In this document: piece by piece, positions 3,280 through 34,297 of the stretch
Layout: each line of letters opens with the position of its first letter
How positions within the stretch are numbered: the first letter of the stretch is position 1
Origin: Bacillota bacterium
Lineage (GTDB): Bacteria; Bacillota; Clostridia; Christensenellales; CAG-917
Assembly (NCBI GenBank): GCA_023665365.1
Contig: JAMPEA010000002.1
Coordinates: forward strand, 69,051 to 133,050
Direction of reading: 5' to 3'
DNA length: 64,000 nucleotides
Made by a program: the position numbers and the translations under genes
Notes under the pieces: model-generated
Seen by the model: the letters and a program-made list of their open reading frames with translations, nothing else
What the model was told of the DNA's origin: nothing
Database searches by the model: none

Positions 3280-3336
3280 GAAGTTCGAGCCAAAGGCTAC
3301 AACAAAAAAACACGCCAACGGCGTGTTTGTTATGGT
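3272..3336 (+). repeat. 65-bp direct repeat, copy 2, covering the tRNA-Val 3' end and terminator
   Basis: It matches 3063-3127 over its whole length with few differences. Its right end includes the complement of the tRNA CCA end, the arrangement expected of attachment sites made by integration at a tRNA gene. No integrase gene is visible in the window. Confidence 0.65.
3301..3331 (-). terminator. Terminator of tRNA-Val
   Basis: On the minus strand, directly after the CCA end, the stem aaacacgcc-gtt-ggcgtgttt is followed by a further T run. This is a standard intrinsic terminator. Confidence 0.8.
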
Positions 3337-5365: not shown

Positions 5366-7354
5366 ATGAAAAGAAAGTTCATCGGCATTTTGTTGATTGT
5401 CGCGCTTGTGGCGACGTTGGCTTTCGGACTCGTCGCGTGCAACAATGGCGGGGATGACAGATATACTATTGTGTATCTCGGCGACAGCATCGCCGAGGCG
5501 CTGATAGGTCCGTCGCCGCTCAGCGAGCGCGACAATTACGGCTATTATGCGATTGTCGGCAAGACGAACGGATTTAGATATTATAACCATTCCGTCTCCG
5601 GACACAAGACCTCTACGGGCATCGTCAGCGGCGACGGACTCTTGGAAATGATTAGCCGCGACGACGAAAACGCCGTGCTTATGAAATCGCATATCAAGCA
5701 GGCGGATATGATACACGTATCCGTGCTTGGCAACAACGTCTTGCAGTATAACATAGGGCTTATGCTCCTCGAAGTCGCCGACCCCGAGTTCGAGGCGAAG
5801 TACGAGGCGGGCAAGACAGCCGAGAACGCCGAGGACAAGACGCTCATCAACGCGCTTGAAGACGGAAGCATTGACGAGCCGCTGTACAGAGACTCCGTTG
5901 ACGACCCGAATGGCGAACCCGTCGAATTCGACTTTCCGCCCACCTACGATGACATTTGTAAGATTGTGGACAGGTTAAAAGCGCTCAATCCCGACGCGAC
6001 GATTGTTTTCCAAAAGGTATACAATCCCTTCTTCGAGGGCTCGAAGCATCTGACGGACGGCGCAAAGGCAAAACTTGCCGAGATTATCGACGACGGCAGG
6101 TTCGGTGCGGAGGGCGACCCCATCGCAACGATGGCGCAGTATAGAAAGCTCGCGGATTATCTGCTCGGCAAGCTCAACGGCATTCTCGACAGATACCTTG
6201 ATTCACACGAGGGCGCGTTTAAGGTGCTCGACGCAAGCGAGGCTTTCCAAGAGGTTGTGGAGCTCAGAAAAAATCCCGATAACAGCGTAAATCTCAGCGA
6301 GGACAGCCTCGGCAGAAAGCTCATCTATGCGGATTGGACGCACCCCTCCAACCTCGGGCACGCGGTCATCGCGGGCATGACGCAGGATTTGCTCGACGAG
6401 ATGAAGGTGTCCTCTCCCAATGCGCTTGCAAACTACAAGGCGTTAAGAGTTGACCAAATCAACCGCCTGTTTAAAAATATCGACGGCTTCGACGCGGATG
6501 CGGCAATCGCGGCTATAAACTCAGCGGAGAAATATCTCGACGTGACTCTTGCCTACTTTGACGCTATCGACGGATATACGCCCGTCGTGCAGGAGGGAAG
6601 CTACGTCACAAACAACAAAAAGACCTCTTTCTCAAAAACCGTGCGCTTCAATATAAACACAAAAAACACCAACCTAAACATAGGGGATATTCATATTTCA
6701 TCGGGTCTGCTTGCGCTTGCTCTGCCTGTGGTGACGGATAGCAACAACACCTACTTGGAGTTCACTTCCGACGGCAAAATGCACGGTCAAATTCAGACGG
6801 CGGCGGGCTTGTTCGGCGAGACGCTCGACAGCTTGTTTAATCTTTTAAATCAATTCCAGATAGATTTTGATAGGGATAAGCTCAATGCAATGATTTCGGG
6901 CGTCGAGATAGAGGGTATGATTGACAGCTATATGGAGCCTATGTTCCCCGGCTTTAAGGCGGAGCTAAGCGACGCAGACTTGGCAGGCGCGCTCAACCTC
7001 ATACACGACGGGCTCGGCTTCAATATCACAGGTCTCGACTACAACGACGAGGGCGTTAAGGAAATACTTGCCTACGTAGCCGATAATATGGCTCTTCCCG
7101 CCGACTTGCTTGACAAAATCCCCGCCGATACCCAGCTTACGCTCACTTTCGACAGCCAATACTATGTCAAGGACGTCAAAGGCACGGACGGCAAAAAGCA
7201 TAAGGCAATCTACGTCAGCGCAATCGGCGCAAACGACGCCACTCAACCCTACTGCGTGTTTGACGTGACCGAAAACAGTAAAGGCGATATGTGCTTGTTT
7301 TTTAGGTTTGAGTTTATGGGGGTGAACCTCGCCTTCACAGAAAAAAACTTGTAA
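5366..7354 (+). CDS. SGNH/GDSL-hydrolase lipoprotein with a C-terminal surface domain
   Basis: 662 residues from the ATG at 5366, chosen because a GGGGG ribosome site precedes it and a lipoprotein signal follows (KRK, hydrophobic core, lipobox GLVAC with Cys25). The mature protein would be lipid-anchored on the outer face of the membrane. An SGNH fold follows: block I GDSIAE near residue 40 with the nucleophilic Ser, a candidate oxyanion Asn in LGNNVLQ, and the Asp/His block DWTHPSNLGH near residue 323. Such enzymes are esterases, often removing acetyl groups from polysaccharides. Residues about 400-662 form a second, beta-then-helix domain that resembles in style the modules of the giant lipoprotein at 35.6-63 kb. 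The last codons and stop lie within the terminal repeat of a hairpin element. Confidence 0.8.
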   Translation: MKRKFIGILLIVALVATLAFGLVACNNGGDDRYTIVYLGDSIAEALIGPSPLSERDNYGYYAIVGKTNGFRYYNHSVSGHKTSTGIVSGDGLLEMISRDDENAVLMKSHIKQADMIHVSVLGNNVLQYNIGLMLLEVADPEFEAKYEAGKTAENAEDKTLINALEDGSIDEPLYRDSVDDPNGEPVEFDFPPTYDDICKIVDRLKALNPDATIVFQKVYNPFFEGSKHLTDGAKAKLAEIIDDGRFGAEGDPIATMAQYRKLADYLLGKLNGILDRYLDSHEGAFKVLDASEAFQEVVELRKNPDNSVNLSEDSLGRKLIYADWTHPSNLGHAVIAGMTQDLLDEMKVSSPNALANYKALRVDQINRLFKNIDGFDADAAIAAINSAEKYLDVTLAYFDAIDGYTPVVQEGSYVTNNKKTSFSKTVRFNINTKNTNLNIGDIHISSGLLALALPVVTDSNNTYLEFTSDGKMHGQIQTAAGLFGETLDSLFNLLNQFQIDFDRDKLNAMISGVEIEGMIDSYMEPMFPGFKAELSDADLAGALNLIHDGLGFNITGLDYNDEGVKEILAYVADNMALPADLLDKIPADTQLTLTFDSQYYVKDVKGTDGKKHKAIYVSAIGANDATQPYCVFDVTENSKGDMCLFFRFEFMGVNLAFTEKNL

Positions 7355-7467
7355 TTTAGCGCATTACTTTGTCAGGGGTGATTTTTTACTCGTCGTGTAC
7401 GATTAGTACACTGGGCGAGATAAAAAATCGCCCCTTTCGCGTACTGCATCTAAATTACAAGTTTTTT
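7342..7467. repeat. Hairpin repeat element (126 bp), copy 1
   Basis: Perfect 18-bp terminal inverted repeats (7342-7359 and 7450-7467; core cttgtaatttag). The interior is also palindromic, with an aggggtgattttttactcg-like arm and the apical hairpin gtgtac-gatta-gtacac. The left end overlaps the last codons and stop of the SGNH lipoprotein gene. There is no reading frame. It probably also works as a transcription terminator. Confidence 0.8.
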
Positions 7468-11474: not shown

Positions 11475-13100
11475 ATGGACTCAAAAAACTTTATCGAAGA
11501 CTTCATCGAGCAGGACCTCGCCGAGGGCAAAGCGGATAAAATCGTCACGCGATTTCCGCCCGAGCCCAACGGATACTTGCACATAGGGCACGCCAAAGCC
11601 CTGTGCATCAACTTCGGCGTAAAGGAAAAGTATAACGGCATATGCAATCTCCGCTTCGACGACACCAATCCCGCAAAGGAGGACGTGGAGTATATGGAGA
11701 GCATAAAGCGCGATATAGAGTGGCTCGGCTTCAAGTGGGACAACCTCTTTAACGCGAGCGACTATTTCGAGAAAATGTACGAGTGCGCCGTCAAGCTGAT
11801 AGAGGACGGCAAGGCTTACGTCTGCGATTTGAGTGCGGACGAGATAAGTTCCACTCGCGGCAGTTTCGGCATTGCGGGCACAGAGAGCCCTTATAGAAAT
11901 AGAAGCGTCGAGGAAAATCTCGATTTGTTTAAGCGCATGAGGGCGGGCGAGTTCGCCGACGGCGAAAAGGTGCTCCGCGCAAAGATAGATATGTCGTCGC
12001 CCAATATCAATATGCGCGACCCCGTTATCTATCGCATCTGCCACGCGACGCATCCGCATACGGGGGACAAGTGGTGCATATATCCCATGTACGACTTCGC
12101 GCACCCCATAGAGGACGCAATTGAGGGCGTATCGCACTCGCTTTGCTCGTTGGAGTTTGAAAATCACCGTCCGCTTTACGACTGGGTTACGCTAAACTGC
12201 GGCTTTGACCCGCGTCCGAGGCAGATTGAGTTTGCAAGGCTCAACCTCACGCATACGGTGATGAGCAAGCGCTTTATCAAGAAGCTCGTGGACGAAAAAA
12301 TCGTTTGGGGTTGGGACGACCCGAGGCTTTCCACGCTGTCGGGCATACGCGAAAGAGGCTACACTCCCGCCGCGATACGCGATTTCTGCGCGCGCATAGG
12401 CGTGGCAAAGGCGGATAGCGAAGTGGATATTTCCATTTTGGAGCACTGCGTCCGCGAGGACTTAAACGCCAACGCCACTCGCGCAATGGTGGTCACTAAG
12501 CCGCTGAAACTCATTATCGACAACTATCCCGAGGGCAAAACCGAGGAAATGTATATCGAAAACAATCCCCAAAAGGAGGGCTCGGGCGTACACGCCGTCG
12601 CCTTTTCTAAGGAACTGTACATAGAACAGGACGACTTTTCGCTCAATCCTCCGCCCAAATACTTCCGATTGAAGCCGGACGGAATAGTAAGGCTCAAAGG
12701 CGCTTATATCGTCAAGTACAGCGGTTGCGAACTCGACGGCGACGGCAACGTCGTCGCCGTGCACGTCGATTATATCGAGGGCACGAAGTCGGGCGAAGAG
12801 GGCGCAAATATGAAGGTCAAAGGCACTATACATTGGGTGAGCGCAAACGACTCGGTTGACGTCACGCTGAATATGTTCGACTATCTCATTGAGGACGGCG
12901 ACGGCGACTATATGGACAGGCTCAATCCCAACTCGCTTACGGTGCTCAAAGGCAAGGCGGAGAAGCTGGTTGCGGACACACCCGTGCATACGCGCTTCCA
13001 GTTTTTGCGAGAGGGCTACTTTATCAAGCGCAACGAGGACAACGAGTTTAATAGCATAGTCGGACTAAAAGACAGCTATAAAATTGCGCCGAATGTTTAG
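11475..13100 (+). CDS. glnS: Glutaminyl-tRNA synthetase
   Basis: 541 residues, the usual GlnRS length. Class I motifs are present: PPEPNGYLHIGHAKAL (HIGH box near residue 34) and VMSKRFIKKL, the GlnRS form of KMSKS. LRFDDTNP and NCGFDPRPRQIEFARLN further mark GlnRS and separate it from GluRS. The C-terminal half has the two anticodon-binding beta barrels. It charges tRNA-Gln directly with glutamine. GlnRS in Clostridia is thought to be of gammaproteobacterial/eukaryotic-type origin by transfer. It lies directly behind a small GNAT-like gene on a leaderless-type transcript. Confidence 0.97.
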   Translation: MDSKNFIEDFIEQDLAEGKADKIVTRFPPEPNGYLHIGHAKALCINFGVKEKYNGICNLRFDDTNPAKEDVEYMESIKRDIEWLGFKWDNLFNASDYFEKMYECAVKLIEDGKAYVCDLSADEISSTRGSFGIAGTESPYRNRSVEENLDLFKRMRAGEFADGEKVLRAKIDMSSPNINMRDPVIYRICHATHPHTGDKWCIYPMYDFAHPIEDAIEGVSHSLCSLEFENHRPLYDWVTLNCGFDPRPRQIEFARLNLTHTVMSKRFIKKLVDEKIVWGWDDPRLSTLSGIRERGYTPAAIRDFCARIGVAKADSEVDISILEHCVREDLNANATRAMVVTKPLKLIIDNYPEGKTEEMYIENNPQKEGSGVHAVAFSKELYIEQDDFSLNPPPKYFRLKPDGIVRLKGAYIVKYSGCELDGDGNVVAVHVDYIEGTKSGEEGANMKVKGTIHWVSANDSVDVTLNMFDYLIEDGDGDYMDRLNPNSLTVLKGKAEKLVADTPVHTRFQFLREGYFIKRNEDNEFNSIVGLKDSYKIAPNV

Positions 13101-13212
13101 TTGTGCGGAACGAAAACTTTGAGCGGGTGTGAACACGACGTATACTCGTTACGAAGTTTAAAACAAAAGTGTGAGAAATGATAACCTCGTGCTGTAAACA
13201 AAACAGTATGGG

Positions 13213-13319
13213 AATTAAGGGGGTAAGGGCTGTTTTCCGAGTCCGCCCTATACCCCCTTATGAACCCCCTTACCTGAAAACTCCTCAAAACCCCCGTGCC
13301 CCCTTATTCTTTAAGGGGG
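13213..13319 (+). repeat. 107-bp dispersed repeat, copy 1
   Basis: It is nearly identical (about three differences) to 63234-63340. It begins attaagggggtaagggc, contains gccctataccccctt (an inverted repeat of the start), and ends cccccttattctttaaggggg. There is no reading frame. A third, partial, inverted copy lies at 63895-63941. Confidence 0.8.
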
Positions 13320-13410
13320 AATGAGATTTGATAGAGTGTGAGTGCGACAAACACTTTTTGCGGAGCTTAGAACAACGTCGGCTTGATAGGGTGTTACACG
13401 ACGAAAACTG

Positions 13411-13738
13411 AGTTCGAAGCGCGACGCGCAGGGCGCGGAGGAAGGGAGTGCCAAGCACCAGACGCAGTTGGGGTGTAGCGATTGTTAGCCAAAGGCTCAA
13501 TCGTGTCGCACCTCTACTGCGTGCACAAGTACAAGTGAGCGGAAAATGTTGTTTTAATTTCCGCGAACGAGTGGCATAATGAGGAGACGATAACAGGCGT
13601 GCGCGCGCCGACTTCCCATCCCACAAGCAATGTTTGCTTGATAGGGAAAGAGGTAGCTACCGCAACCGTCTATATTCTTGCGGGAGGGGAAAGCCCGCAG
13701 GGAAGGGGTGGGAAACTTTATTTAAAGTACACGATGCT
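13411..13738 (+). ncRNA. Candidate structured RNA, copy A
   Basis: About 325 bases homologous to the reverse strand of 33845-34165. Predicted stems: acgcagt/actgcgt (13462-13468 with 13516-13522), cgattg/caatcg (13479-13484 with 13498-13503) capped by agcc-aaa-ggct, gcggaaa/tttccgc (13539-13545 with 13558-13564) and ttcccatccc/ggggtgggaa (13613-13622 with 13705-13714), the last enclosing the hairpin caagcaa-tgt-ttgcttg. In copy B the same stems are kept by different base pairs (for example gcgggca/tgcccgc), so pairing is conserved rather than sequence. It ends about 30 bases before the zinc-ribbon ATG on the same strand, so here it could act as a leader, yet copy B has no gene behind it. No known family was recognised. 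Confidence 0.6.
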
Positions 13739-13768
13739 CGCTATGTAGAGAAAGGAGCAAAGAATAAA

Positions 13769-15019
13769 ATGTTCGTTTGTAAGATTTGCGGAAACGAAGT
13801 GAAACAAGGGCAGGCATTTTGCGGAAAATGCGGCGCGGACGTAGTTGAAAACTACGAGACCGTTTGTCCCATATGCGGCACGAAGAACGGCGCGGGGAGC
13901 AGATATTGCGCTCGCTGCGGCGGGATTTTGTCCGTTATGCGCAAGCCCGTCTGCGAAGTGTGCGGCGCGAGAAATCTGCCGGGCGCAAAATATTGCGTAT
14001 CCTGCGGCGCGCCAATCAACATAAACAGCGAAACGCACTCGGATAGCGATATGTTCGACGCGCGCAAGGCGAAAAAGCGTCTTGACAATATGGAGCGCGA
14101 CAGAATGGCGGCGGTGGATAAGGAAATCGCCGAAAAGCGCGCAAAGGTTGCCGAGGAAAAGGAAGAAGCCATAAAGGAAGTGGAGCGTTATAAGGCGAAG
14201 TGCGAGGAGGATTATTCGCACAAGCTCAGCACGCTCGAAGCGTACAAGGATAAAATCAACGAGCTCGGCGCAGAGGACGTAGAGCAGTTGAAAAAGGTGT
14301 CGGTGTCGCTAAAAGACTATTCGCGCTACTATGCCGACCCCTACTCGCAAATCGACGAGGACGATATAGAGACCGAGACTTACGTCTGTCCCGCGTGCGG
14401 CACGATAAATCCGCTCACGGCGACGGCTTGCACCAACTGCGGACGCAATAAGGCTCGCGCGCTTTTGTTGCTTGCGAAAAACAAAATCAAGCAGAGTCCG
14501 CCCGTCAAGCGAAAACAGCGTATAATTCCCGCGCCCGAGGAGGACTTGAAGCGCGATACTATCCCCTCGATAGAGGAGTTCGAGGCGAAAACCGCAAAGC
14601 CCGCGACCGAGCAGACCGCCGCAAGCGAAAAGCCCGTCGAGCAGGACGCAAAAGAGCCGCCCGCGGATTTTTCGGGTCGTCCGCAATATCCGCAATACGG
14701 CTATCCCTATCCGCCATATCCTCCTTACGCGCCCTATCAACCGCCTTATCCCTATCCTCCGCAAGCTCCGCAGTACGCGGCGCAACAGGCTGGCGCGCCT
14801 ATGGACTACGGCGAGTATTGCTATCAAGAGGAGATGCGCAGGCAGATGCCTCCTATCGTACAGCCGGTGGCGTTTGTGCCTTACGTGACACAGGAGCAAC
14901 CGCTTATGCAGTATTCTCCCGAGATACCGCAAGGACCTATCGCCCAGCCGTCGCAGGACGAGCAGGCTGAAAGCAAATCTTCGCGCGGCAGACGCGAGAA
15001 GAAAAACAAACTCATCTGA
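13769..15019 (+). CDS. Zinc-ribbon protein with coiled coil and Pro/Tyr-rich tail
   Basis: 416 residues from the ATG at 13769 (AAAGGAG 11 nt upstream); an upstream TTG frame would run into the candidate RNA. There are three N-terminal zinc ribbons with paired CxxC: CKICG...CGKCG, CPICG...CARCG and CEVCG...CVSCG (residues about 4-80). A charged coiled coil follows (about 90-165, Lys/Glu-rich). A fourth ribbon, CPACGTINPLTATACTNCG, is near residue 210. The tail (about 305-400) is Pro/Tyr-rich (YPYPPYPPYAPYQPPYPYPP) and ends with the segment PVAFVPYVTQEQ and a basic C-terminus. No signal peptide is present. It leads an operon with two four-TM proteins, one of which carries a similar VPYxTQ segment. 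It may be a cytosolic scaffold; no enzyme motif is seen. Confidence 0.8.
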   Translation: MFVCKICGNEVKQGQAFCGKCGADVVENYETVCPICGTKNGAGSRYCARCGGILSVMRKPVCEVCGARNLPGAKYCVSCGAPININSETHSDSDMFDARKAKKRLDNMERDRMAAVDKEIAEKRAKVAEEKEEAIKEVERYKAKCEEDYSHKLSTLEAYKDKINELGAEDVEQLKKVSVSLKDYSRYYADPYSQIDEDDIETETYVCPACGTINPLTATACTNCGRNKARALLLLAKNKIKQSPPVKRKQRIIPAPEEDLKRDTIPSIEEFEAKTAKPATEQTAASEKPVEQDAKEPPADFSGRPQYPQYGYPYPPYPPYAPYQPPYPYPPQAPQYAAQQAGAPMDYGEYCYQEEMRRQMPPIVQPVAFVPYVTQEQPLMQYSPEIPQGPIAQPSQDEQAESKSSRGRREKKNKLI

Positions 15020-33027: not shown

Positions 33028-33588
33028 ATGAAAACTCTTGAACGTAAATATTCCAAGGCGGAACGCATTATCGCAAAAGCCAAATTTTCCTCGACGGTGT
33101 ATTTGAAAAGCGTCCTGCTTGCCGTCGTGCTCGGCGTAATCATCGCCGTCGTGTGGTCGTGCAACGATAAAATCGAGCATCTCTTCACCAAAGGTGAAGG
33201 TCCTGCCACAGTCCTCACCGACGAGGTTATGCGCTACGTGCTGTTGGGAGCGGGGATTTTGGTTTTGCTCAGCTTGATTGCGCAGGCGCTTTCGCTCTAC
33301 GCCAAGGAGCTTATCGTGACCGAAAGCCAAGTCGTATTCCGCTTCGGAGTGTTCGCCGTCAAAAATATCACCATTCCGATACGCGAAATCGTCATCATCG
33401 AAACTACGCATAGCCTCCTGCAAAGGATTTTGGGCACAGGCACGCTATCCATCGTATCCGACGCCGAAGCCCCCTACAAGGTCAAAGGCGTCAGAGGTGC
33501 GGACAGACTCACTCGCCGCATTATGAAGCAGGTGAATGATGTGCGGTTGGAGAATGATACGAAGAAAATCAAAATCCGTTTATCTTAA
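33028..33588 (+). CDS. Bacterial PH-domain (bPH2) membrane protein
   Basis: 186 residues. Two membrane segments (about 27-47 and 72-94) are followed by a bPH2 domain (about 98-175) with the typical strands LIVTESQVVFRFGVFAVKNI and PIREIVIIETTHSLLQRILG. This is similar to half of a YdbS/YdbT-type protein. Members are thought to work in envelope stress or lipid-related tasks; the role is not established. It is cotranscribed with the GH127-like gene (7-base gap). Its stop codon overlaps the start of a hairpin element by two bases. Confidence 0.82.
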   Translation: MKTLERKYSKAERIIAKAKFSSTVYLKSVLLAVVLGVIIAVVWSCNDKIEHLFTKGEGPATVLTDEVMRYVLLGAGILVLLSLIAQALSLYAKELIVTESQVVFRFGVFAVKNITIPIREIVIIETTHSLLQRILGTGTLSIVSDAEAPYKVKGVRGADRLTRRIMKQVNDVRLENDTKKIKIRLS

Positions 33589-33709
33589 AACCTTGCAATT
33601 TGCGTTGATACTGCGTCAAAGGCACTTTTGCTTGCAATCACGTACTACTTGTACGTTGGGTTGCTCACAAAAGTGCTTTTCCTTGTCTGAACGCAAATTG
33701 CAAGGTTTT
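33587..33709. repeat. Hairpin repeat element (123 bp), copy 3
   Basis: Perfect 20-bp terminal inverted repeats (33587-33606 and 33690-33709; aaaaccttgcaatttgcgtt and its complement). The interior arms include aaaggcacttttg/caaaagtgctttt and the apical hairpin is cgtac-tactt-gtacg, a subfamily shared with 29986-30081. It starts within the stop codon of the PH-domain gene. Confidence 0.82.
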
Positions 33710-33844
33710 ACAAACTTGATGATTTGGCGGTGCGCCCGAGCGCCTCTTTCGCGTTCTTCATCTCAATAGCGCGTTTTAAGGGTTTTAAGTTGAAGATAAT
33801 AAAATCCAATTAAACCGATTAGAATGCTTGTTTAATATGCTTTT

Positions 33845-34165
33845 CGTTGTGTACTCTAAATAAAATAACCCCCTCTTTCCCTTCGGGCTTTTCTCCCACC
33901 ACTCGAATATGACGCTCCTCGTAGCTCGCTCTTTCTCTATTTAGCTGTACATCGCTCGCGGGGGCGAAAGTCGGCGCGCGCACGTCGAGTATCGTCCCCT
34001 CATTATGCCACTCGTTCGCGGGCATATAAACAACACTTGCCCGCTCACTTGTACTTGTTGTGTGTTACGCGATTGGGCTATGCCTCAATCGCTACACACC
34101 CAACTCTGGTGCTTGGCACTCCCTTCCTCCGCGCCCTGCGCGTCGCGTTCTTTCTCGCCCCGGCT
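33845..34165 (-). ncRNA. Candidate structured RNA, copy B
   Basis: The minus strand matches 13411-13738 over about 320 bases. The stems are kept by different pairs: gcgggca/tgcccgc (34018-34024 with 34038-34044) replaces gcggaaa/tttccgc; the gttgtgtgt arm (34057-34065) pairs with acacac-cc-aac (34094-34104) in place of acgcagt/actgcgt; gcgattg/caatcgc (34069-34075 with 34086-34092) is capped by ggc-tat-gcc. No gene lies just downstream on this strand, so it looks free-standing. The rest of 33710-34171 holds no reading frame I can support. Confidence 0.6.
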
Positions 34166-34171
34166 ACTCGT

Positions 34172-34295
34172 AAAACCTTGTAATTTAGATGATAGGCGCG
34201 AAAAAGCCTCGTTTCAAGTCGCCTAGTGTACTAAGCGTACACGACGACGAAGAAACGGGGCTTTGACAAAGCATATCGCTAAATTACAAGGTTTT
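34172..34295. repeat. Hairpin repeat element (124 bp), copy 4
   Basis: Perfect 17-bp terminal inverted repeats (34172-34188 and 34279-34295; aaaaccttgtaatttag). It is closely related to copy 2 in the reverse orientation (gcctagtgtactaagcgtacac at the centre). It ends two bases from the stop codon of the minus-strand membrane protein. Confidence 0.82.
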
Positions 34296-34297
34296 AA

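Follow-up and report, generated by a model that had tools for sequence, protein, structure and literature searches.

A family of hairpin-rich, module-exchanging and probably mobile intergenic repeats in two genera of Clostridia

Large covarying folds are known from multi-copy mobile elements, as in the HEARO and omega RNAs, most of which occur without an open reading frame. Smaller repeats dispersed between genes form another described kind. BOX repeats of Streptococcus pneumoniae, together with RUP and SPRITE, are modular A/B/C intergenic repeats with over 100 copies per genome (PMC3049150); they have strong predicted folds, occur in few species, are enriched between convergent genes, and are thought to be non-autonomous parasites (PMC3049150). 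CGTC-tagged palindromes also occur without a dedicated enzyme (PMC3733652).

The family described here was first seen as two copies, A and B, within a stretch of 64,000 nucleotides, hereafter called the window. Using blastn against its own genome, query positions 10–322 of copy A (13411–13738, plus strand) aligned to copy B (33849–34147, minus strand; C22:102899–103197, minus strand, on its own contig) at 77% identity (E 1.2e-57), a similarity that is not due to chance. This alignment, along with both stem arms as read in the letters, bears out the observation of a sequence-only reading that the copies match in inverted orientation and that their stems differ on both sides at once, with GCGGAAA/TTTCCGC in copy A replaced by GCGGGCA/TGCCCGC in copy B, ACGCAGT/ACTGCGT by GTT..GTGTGT/ACACAC..AAC, and AGCC/GGCT by GGC/GCC. 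The outer stem proposed by the same reading for the 3' part stands only as one of two options: TTCCCATCCC can pair with the terminal GGGGTGGGAA, but the internal GGGAGGGGAA is a competing partner, and TTCCCATCCC/GGGAGGGGAA is the pairing returned by RNAalifold both for sister-genus copies and for the own-genus alignment. The parts of the two copies and their surroundings, in window coordinates, are as follows:

13101–13768, plus strand: whole composite insert with copy A; the gltX-type tRNA synthetase gene ends at 13100 and the zinc-ribbon gene starts at 13769
13110–13166, plus strand: leader hairpin unit 1 (leader HMM, E 4.6e-11)
13216–13322, plus strand: G/C-rich palindromic module with inverted repeats I1, I3 and I4, which precedes many other copies too
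13327–13420, plus strand: leader hairpin units 2 and 3 (leader HMM, E 1.3e-9 and 1.1e-10)
13420–13461, plus strand: core 5' box (CGCGACGCGCAGGGCGCGG..GAGTGCCAAGCACCAG), with a 93-100% match in many other copies
13462–13522, plus strand: exchangeable hairpin 1 (inverted repeat I2), with at least four alleles and missing from some copies
13530–13580, plus strand: hp2 module, made of TACAAGTGA, a covarying stem (13539–13545/13558–13564) and GAACGAGTGGCATAA (covariance model R1, E 1.3e-13)
13613–13714, plus strand: 3' domain, in which TTCCCATCCC (13613–13622) pairs with 13682–13691 or, alternatively, with 13705–13714
13682–13712, plus strand: 3' purine box with a GNA-loop mini-hairpin (AAAGCCCGnAGGGAA), 31-mer pattern
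13713–13738, plus strand: tail ending in TTTAAAGTACACGATG, the right limit of homology, where the coverage of other copies stops
33589–34297, minus strand: gap between genes in which copy B lies, with the coding ends 715 bp apart
33849–34147, minus strand: core of copy B, 77% identical to copy A
33869–33899, minus strand: 3' purine box of copy B, 31-mer pattern
33586–33710, no strand assigned: distinct ~125-bp foldback repeat flanking copy B on one side (arms 33586–33606/33690–33710)
34171–34296, no strand assigned: distinct ~126-bp foldback repeat flanking copy B on the opposite side (arms 34171–34188/34279–34296)

These foldbacks form a second repeat family, with window copies at 7342–7467, 33586–33710 and 34171–34296 (the last two bracketing copy B) and perfect arms of 18–21 nt, whose outer arms vary between copies while complementarity is kept; akin foldbacks occur in sister-genus loci, e.g. 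AACGCCGCCATTT..AAATGGCGGCGTT. The window also holds a single ORF of 9,177 aa (35505–63038, plus strand), three sampled segments of which (1000–1512 aa) had no Pfam match.

When copies were compared with one another, their modules kept the same order throughout, beginning with leader hairpin units and the 5' box and continuing through exchangeable hairpin 1, hp2, and exchangeable hairpin 3 to the 3' domain. The hp2 module is framed by the junction sequences TACAAGTGA/CGAACGAGTGGCATAA, and the 3' domain is closed by a pyrimidine/purine helix ending in GGGAGGGGAAAGCCCGnAGGGAAGGGGTGGG and followed by the tail TTTAAAGTACACGACG. The pairing assigned to the 3' domain draws on a long-range helix in alignments and on the single-copy fold of copy A; one alignment used for this helix mixes architectures, and only its quoted helices were counted. 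Within this order the copies are mosaic, with one hairpin allele adjoining differing alleles of the next hairpin, and several compensatory changes that separate copy A from copy B amount to swaps of whole hairpin modules, each with few alleles that are common to many copies. The loops of copies harbor nested palindromes, REP-like and other, and a GTAG-tagged REP-like hairpin (13475–13503) lies inside exchangeable hairpin 1; at this module, the 67–96 segment also exists alone in congeners. Homology ends at a constant right edge, after the tail, and at a variable left edge made of leader units; the ends of copies show a direct TTTAGA..CGACG similarity and are flanked by hairpin units of ~33–47 bp. 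Degenerate tandem arrays of ~33–35-bp units, in which two small palindromes alternate (CACTTATTCGAAGTG, CGTG..CACG), were also observed on one or both sides of the elements, in the leaders of most sister-genus copies and downstream of a RAYT ORF in locus L204.

The family extends well beyond copies A and B, such that the two inverted copies of the sequence-only reading both exist but fall short of a family with dozens of members. Its own 1.59-Mb genome contains 62 pieces matching the copy A query by blastn, in ~40 places and many of them at contig ends, and a second query brought out an additional, second 3' architecture. The own-genome copies were compared in the stretches surrounding them. 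Contig ends lie within element copies on G000 contigs C4, C6, C7, C14, C16, C20, C24, C30, C38, C42, and C43. With this many contigs ending in a copy, the assembly breaks seem to be due to the repeats, and the true copy number is probably higher. With a covariance model of hp2, 24 modules each were detected in the own genome and in G018, and 11 in G015, and diverged versions with the same junctions and different stems were detected in G003, G004, G008, and G016, all of the own genus. The 31-mer pattern of the 3' box has two occurrences in the window against none in shuffles, 23 in the own genome, and up to 66 per genome in relatives. GTDB genomes yielded at least 107 stretches with this pattern, every one belonging to Clostridia or to an unnamed MAG, Candidatus Limadaptatus among them, and no viral contig had it; with two mismatches allowed, 15 of 43 genomes and 2 of 10 genera of the family carry it. 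In a sample of the order, the pattern was found in 11 of 396 genomes and 2 of 142 genera, namely the own genus and one matching Candidatus Limadaptatus MAGs, with a patchy presence within both. As in BOX-like repeats, copies are thus numerous, intergenic and limited to a few related species, and modules are variably present between copies.

The fold itself is real and maintained. Across 14 distinct hp2 hairpins, 96 of 98 positions are paired, a level reached by none of 100,000 arm-swapping permutations, and in the sister-genus hairpin P1, 99.4% of cells are paired, six pairs and 33 cells being changed on both sides, and 0 of 500 shuffles attained either this double-change count or the covariation score. 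The hp2 loop (TTGTTT/CTGTTT) and junctions are likewise conserved across diverged subfamilies. Neither copy A nor copy B had a match in Rfam 15, at the gathering threshold or at E<=10, and 17 loci of relatives had none at the gathering threshold, in agreement with the earlier statement that no known family was recognizable; this covers raiA, ROOL, GOLLD, OLE, HEARO, and omega RNAs as represented in Rfam 15, none of which gave a covariance-model match. Similarity searches of plasmids and phages with the element returned no match, the one notable ORF across copy A had no Pfam match, and no ORF of the element matched a family. The functional RNA fold proposed from the letters therefore holds as far as the fold is concerned, which is compensatory and kept across the genus with conserved loops and junctions, but a role as folded DNA is favored over one as RNA, and strong stem covariation combined with the lack of an Rfam match is insufficient to call a functional RNA.

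Gene context indicates how the copies came to be where they are. The gltX-type synthetase gene that precedes copy A is present in 19 of 20 genomes of the genus, and wherever a congener locus contains the zinc-ribbon gene as well, the two genes are neighbors and no element was detected, the gap being 16–83 bp where measured versus 668 bp here. Copy B lies within a bPH_2/HGSNAT pair that is similarly separated by 715 bp here versus about 220 bp in G015, G018, and G001, in whose gaps no element was found. These short, element-free orthologous gaps imply that copies A and B are insertions in this lineage, at sites that are empty in relatives as for BOX-like repeats. The assertion that the pattern would be hard to explain by neutral repeats hence gives way, as the copies are lineage-specific insertions of a high-copy mosaic repeat. 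No target-site duplication or clean end was definable, the intergenic DNA of congeners being too diverged, which counts against a mobile repeat. Amplification in these genomes of small, independent RNA genes that serve the host would account for the conserved structure and loops and for those intergenic spots that keep a copy across species, but the lineage-specific insertion of copies A and B speaks strongly against it, as do the patchy presence within genera, the dozens of divergent mosaic copies, and promoters and terminators at chance level, and we regard it as highly improbable. A cis-regulatory leader or riboswitch-like RNA would fit the placement of copy A and several others just upstream of a co-directional start codon. 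Among 82 copies, however, 34 are followed by a gene on the same strand and 48 by one on the opposite strand, and convergent neighbors (33) outnumber divergent ones (18), as counted with a crude ORF caller; the copies are intergenic and share no reading direction with downstream genes. These strand counts exclude a general leader function. With orthologous congener genes lacking the element and inverted versions at the same spot, the probability of this reading is close to nil, and as a general explanation it is refuted by the neighbor-strand counts and the empty sites. Some species do share a copy beside the same gene, even across both genera (32 same-orientation and 13 inverted pairs, which partly share members and are hence not independent), and copies at shared spots often differ in architecture. 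While the 13 inverted pairs are about the number expected from independent insertion by a rough estimate, the excess of same-orientation pairs suggests that some insertions are old and had their modules exchanged later; it also counts against a mobile repeat, as some copies are old or constrained.

Whether the fold acts as DNA or RNA bears on two further explanations. In 30 distinct hp2 hairpins, the stems comprise 175 cells with Watson-Crick pairing, 3 with G·U, and 2 with A·C, compared to 28 G·U among 406 pairs (6.9%) in tRNA stems of the same loci. The comparison of G·U with A·C, clear in hp2, where the two are about equally rare, is mixed over whole alignments (folded without allowing G·U), with 62 G·U versus 22 A·C cells (15 versus 6 pairs) in the sister genus and 9 versus 12 in the own genus. 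Both strands fold far beyond shuffles, and whole-fold z-scores are not decisive: the plus strand is more stable in 22/22 and 19/20 copies, but a shuffling control removes this preference, the minus-strand z-score being below that of the plus strand in most copies. Scans of the copies found no terminator beyond chance and one or two promoter-like sites, which is near chance. The almost purely Watson-Crick stems and the lack of any standout promoter or terminator favor folded DNA over a transcribed RNA, though not conclusively, and the sister-genus excess of G·U over A·C leaves room for a role at the RNA level. A mobile element whose fold acts as RNA, either HEARO/omega-like or a ribozyme, with a plus-strand transcript bound by the moving enzyme, would be consistent with that excess and with the greater stability of the plus strand, as well as with a multi-domain fold whose junctions and hp2 loop are conserved across subfamilies and with foreign palindromes inserted in loops. 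It appears unlikely given the near absence of G·U in hp2, the loss of strand preference in the shuffling control, chance-level transcription signals, the lack of Rfam matches (RNAs of mobile elements included), and the fact that neither partner protein nor autonomous copy was found. Near-perfect Watson-Crick stems, whole-hairpin replacement, and the abundance of other palindrome families could also reflect mechanical palindrome maintenance, i.e. template-switch correction and nested REP-like insertion with no enzyme-recognized fold. Such correction would not conserve unpaired junctions and loops across diverged subfamilies, and dispersal to new sites needs a moving mechanism, so that this explanation is quite improbable.

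Among candidate mobilizing enzymes, no Y1_Tnp, TnpB-type, or IS110 protein match was obtained in the own genome, G015, or G018, which likewise counts against a mobile repeat. Of the sister-genus genomes rich in the element, 6 of 7 encode a RAYT (Y1_Tnp), compared to 0 of 3 without elements, but RAYT was rejected as the direct mover because a different palindrome (GGGGACGGGC..) flanks it and because the own genome, G015, and G018 lack it. Loci L200–L206, from the sister genus and G010, contain single RAYT-like genes of about 254–356 aa, several of which have palindromes of type CAATTGGGGACGGGGCAAAATTG..CAATTTTGCCCCGTCCCCAATTG on both flanks. Reverse transcriptases, found in 9 of 43 genomes, are unrelated to the presence of copies, and TnpB-type and IS110 proteins, the other two families covered, were discarded as partners since they are absent from most or all carrier genomes. 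A large serine recombinase gene ends beside an element tail (GGGGTGGGTTATTTTATTTAAAGTACACGACG) at 3296–5073 of L086 (G000:C41), a single case most simply explained by integration into an element copy. No autonomous element copy or partner protein was found in the genomes examined.

Taken together, the high copy number, two-genus range, intergenic placement, mosaic structure, and empty orthologous sites point to a mobile repeat rather than a conserved RNA gene. We consider it probable that the family is a non-autonomous, hairpin-rich mobile intergenic repeat that exchanges modules and whose fold is recognized by a putative enzyme. This is in spirit, though not literally, the known transposon that the sequence-only reading had set against its own proposal; the protein-coding remnant it had also named was not matched by copies A and B. 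A unit of about 330–450 bp, together with flanking hairpin units, would spread into intergenic regions, and whole hairpin modules would be exchanged between copies by gene conversion, recombination, or nested insertion. The conserved fold may serve as the recognition structure for an enzyme acting in trans, most likely in the form of DNA folded as a single strand or a cruciform, by analogy with TnpA of the IS200/IS605 group acting on REP or IS hairpins. The ~33–47-bp end hairpin units may be landing or recombination sites, a role that would explain why differing, sometimes inverted versions occupy the same spots in related species. More tentatively, and with rather low probability, the family could be a new class of mobile element, in which a multi-domain covarying RNA or single-stranded DNA fold is the enzyme substrate and hairpin cassettes are swapped at fixed landing arrays. 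If the fold is an enzyme substrate, the family would constitute a natural library of interchangeable recognized hairpins. In a gut Clostridia lineage, the repeats account for a visible share of the DNA between genes, and they seem to break many of its assemblies. They also illustrate that mosaic mobile palindromes can mimic the signal of a functional RNA, i.e. stem covariation without an Rfam family, and that checks for a near absence of G·U and for empty orthologous sites are cheap additions to any structured-RNA scan.

The family shares with HEARO and omega RNAs a large covarying fold in a multi-copy element, but differs in having no Rfam match at any threshold and in that TnpB-type proteins are absent from most carrier genomes. 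It resembles REP, BIME, and REPIN sequences in its hairpins dispersed between genes, in the GTAG-tagged hairpin nested in module 1, and in its BIME-like mosaic composites, whereas its unit is about ten times the size of a REP and, unlike in the REP/RAYT system (REPtron), the own genome has no RAYT and the RAYTs of relatives are flanked by another palindrome. Compared to BOX, no sequence relation was established, the core is longer, at about 330–450 bp, with numerous covarying hairpins that are exchanged between copies, and neither terminal inverted repeats nor target-site duplications were seen. Like BOX, however, the family is modular, intergenic, folded, and confined to few related species, and its excess of convergent over divergent neighbors resembles the parasitic pattern reported for BOX and RUP (PMC3049150). 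While itself undescribed, the family is closest in kind to the BOX/BIME/REP-type non-autonomous repeats.
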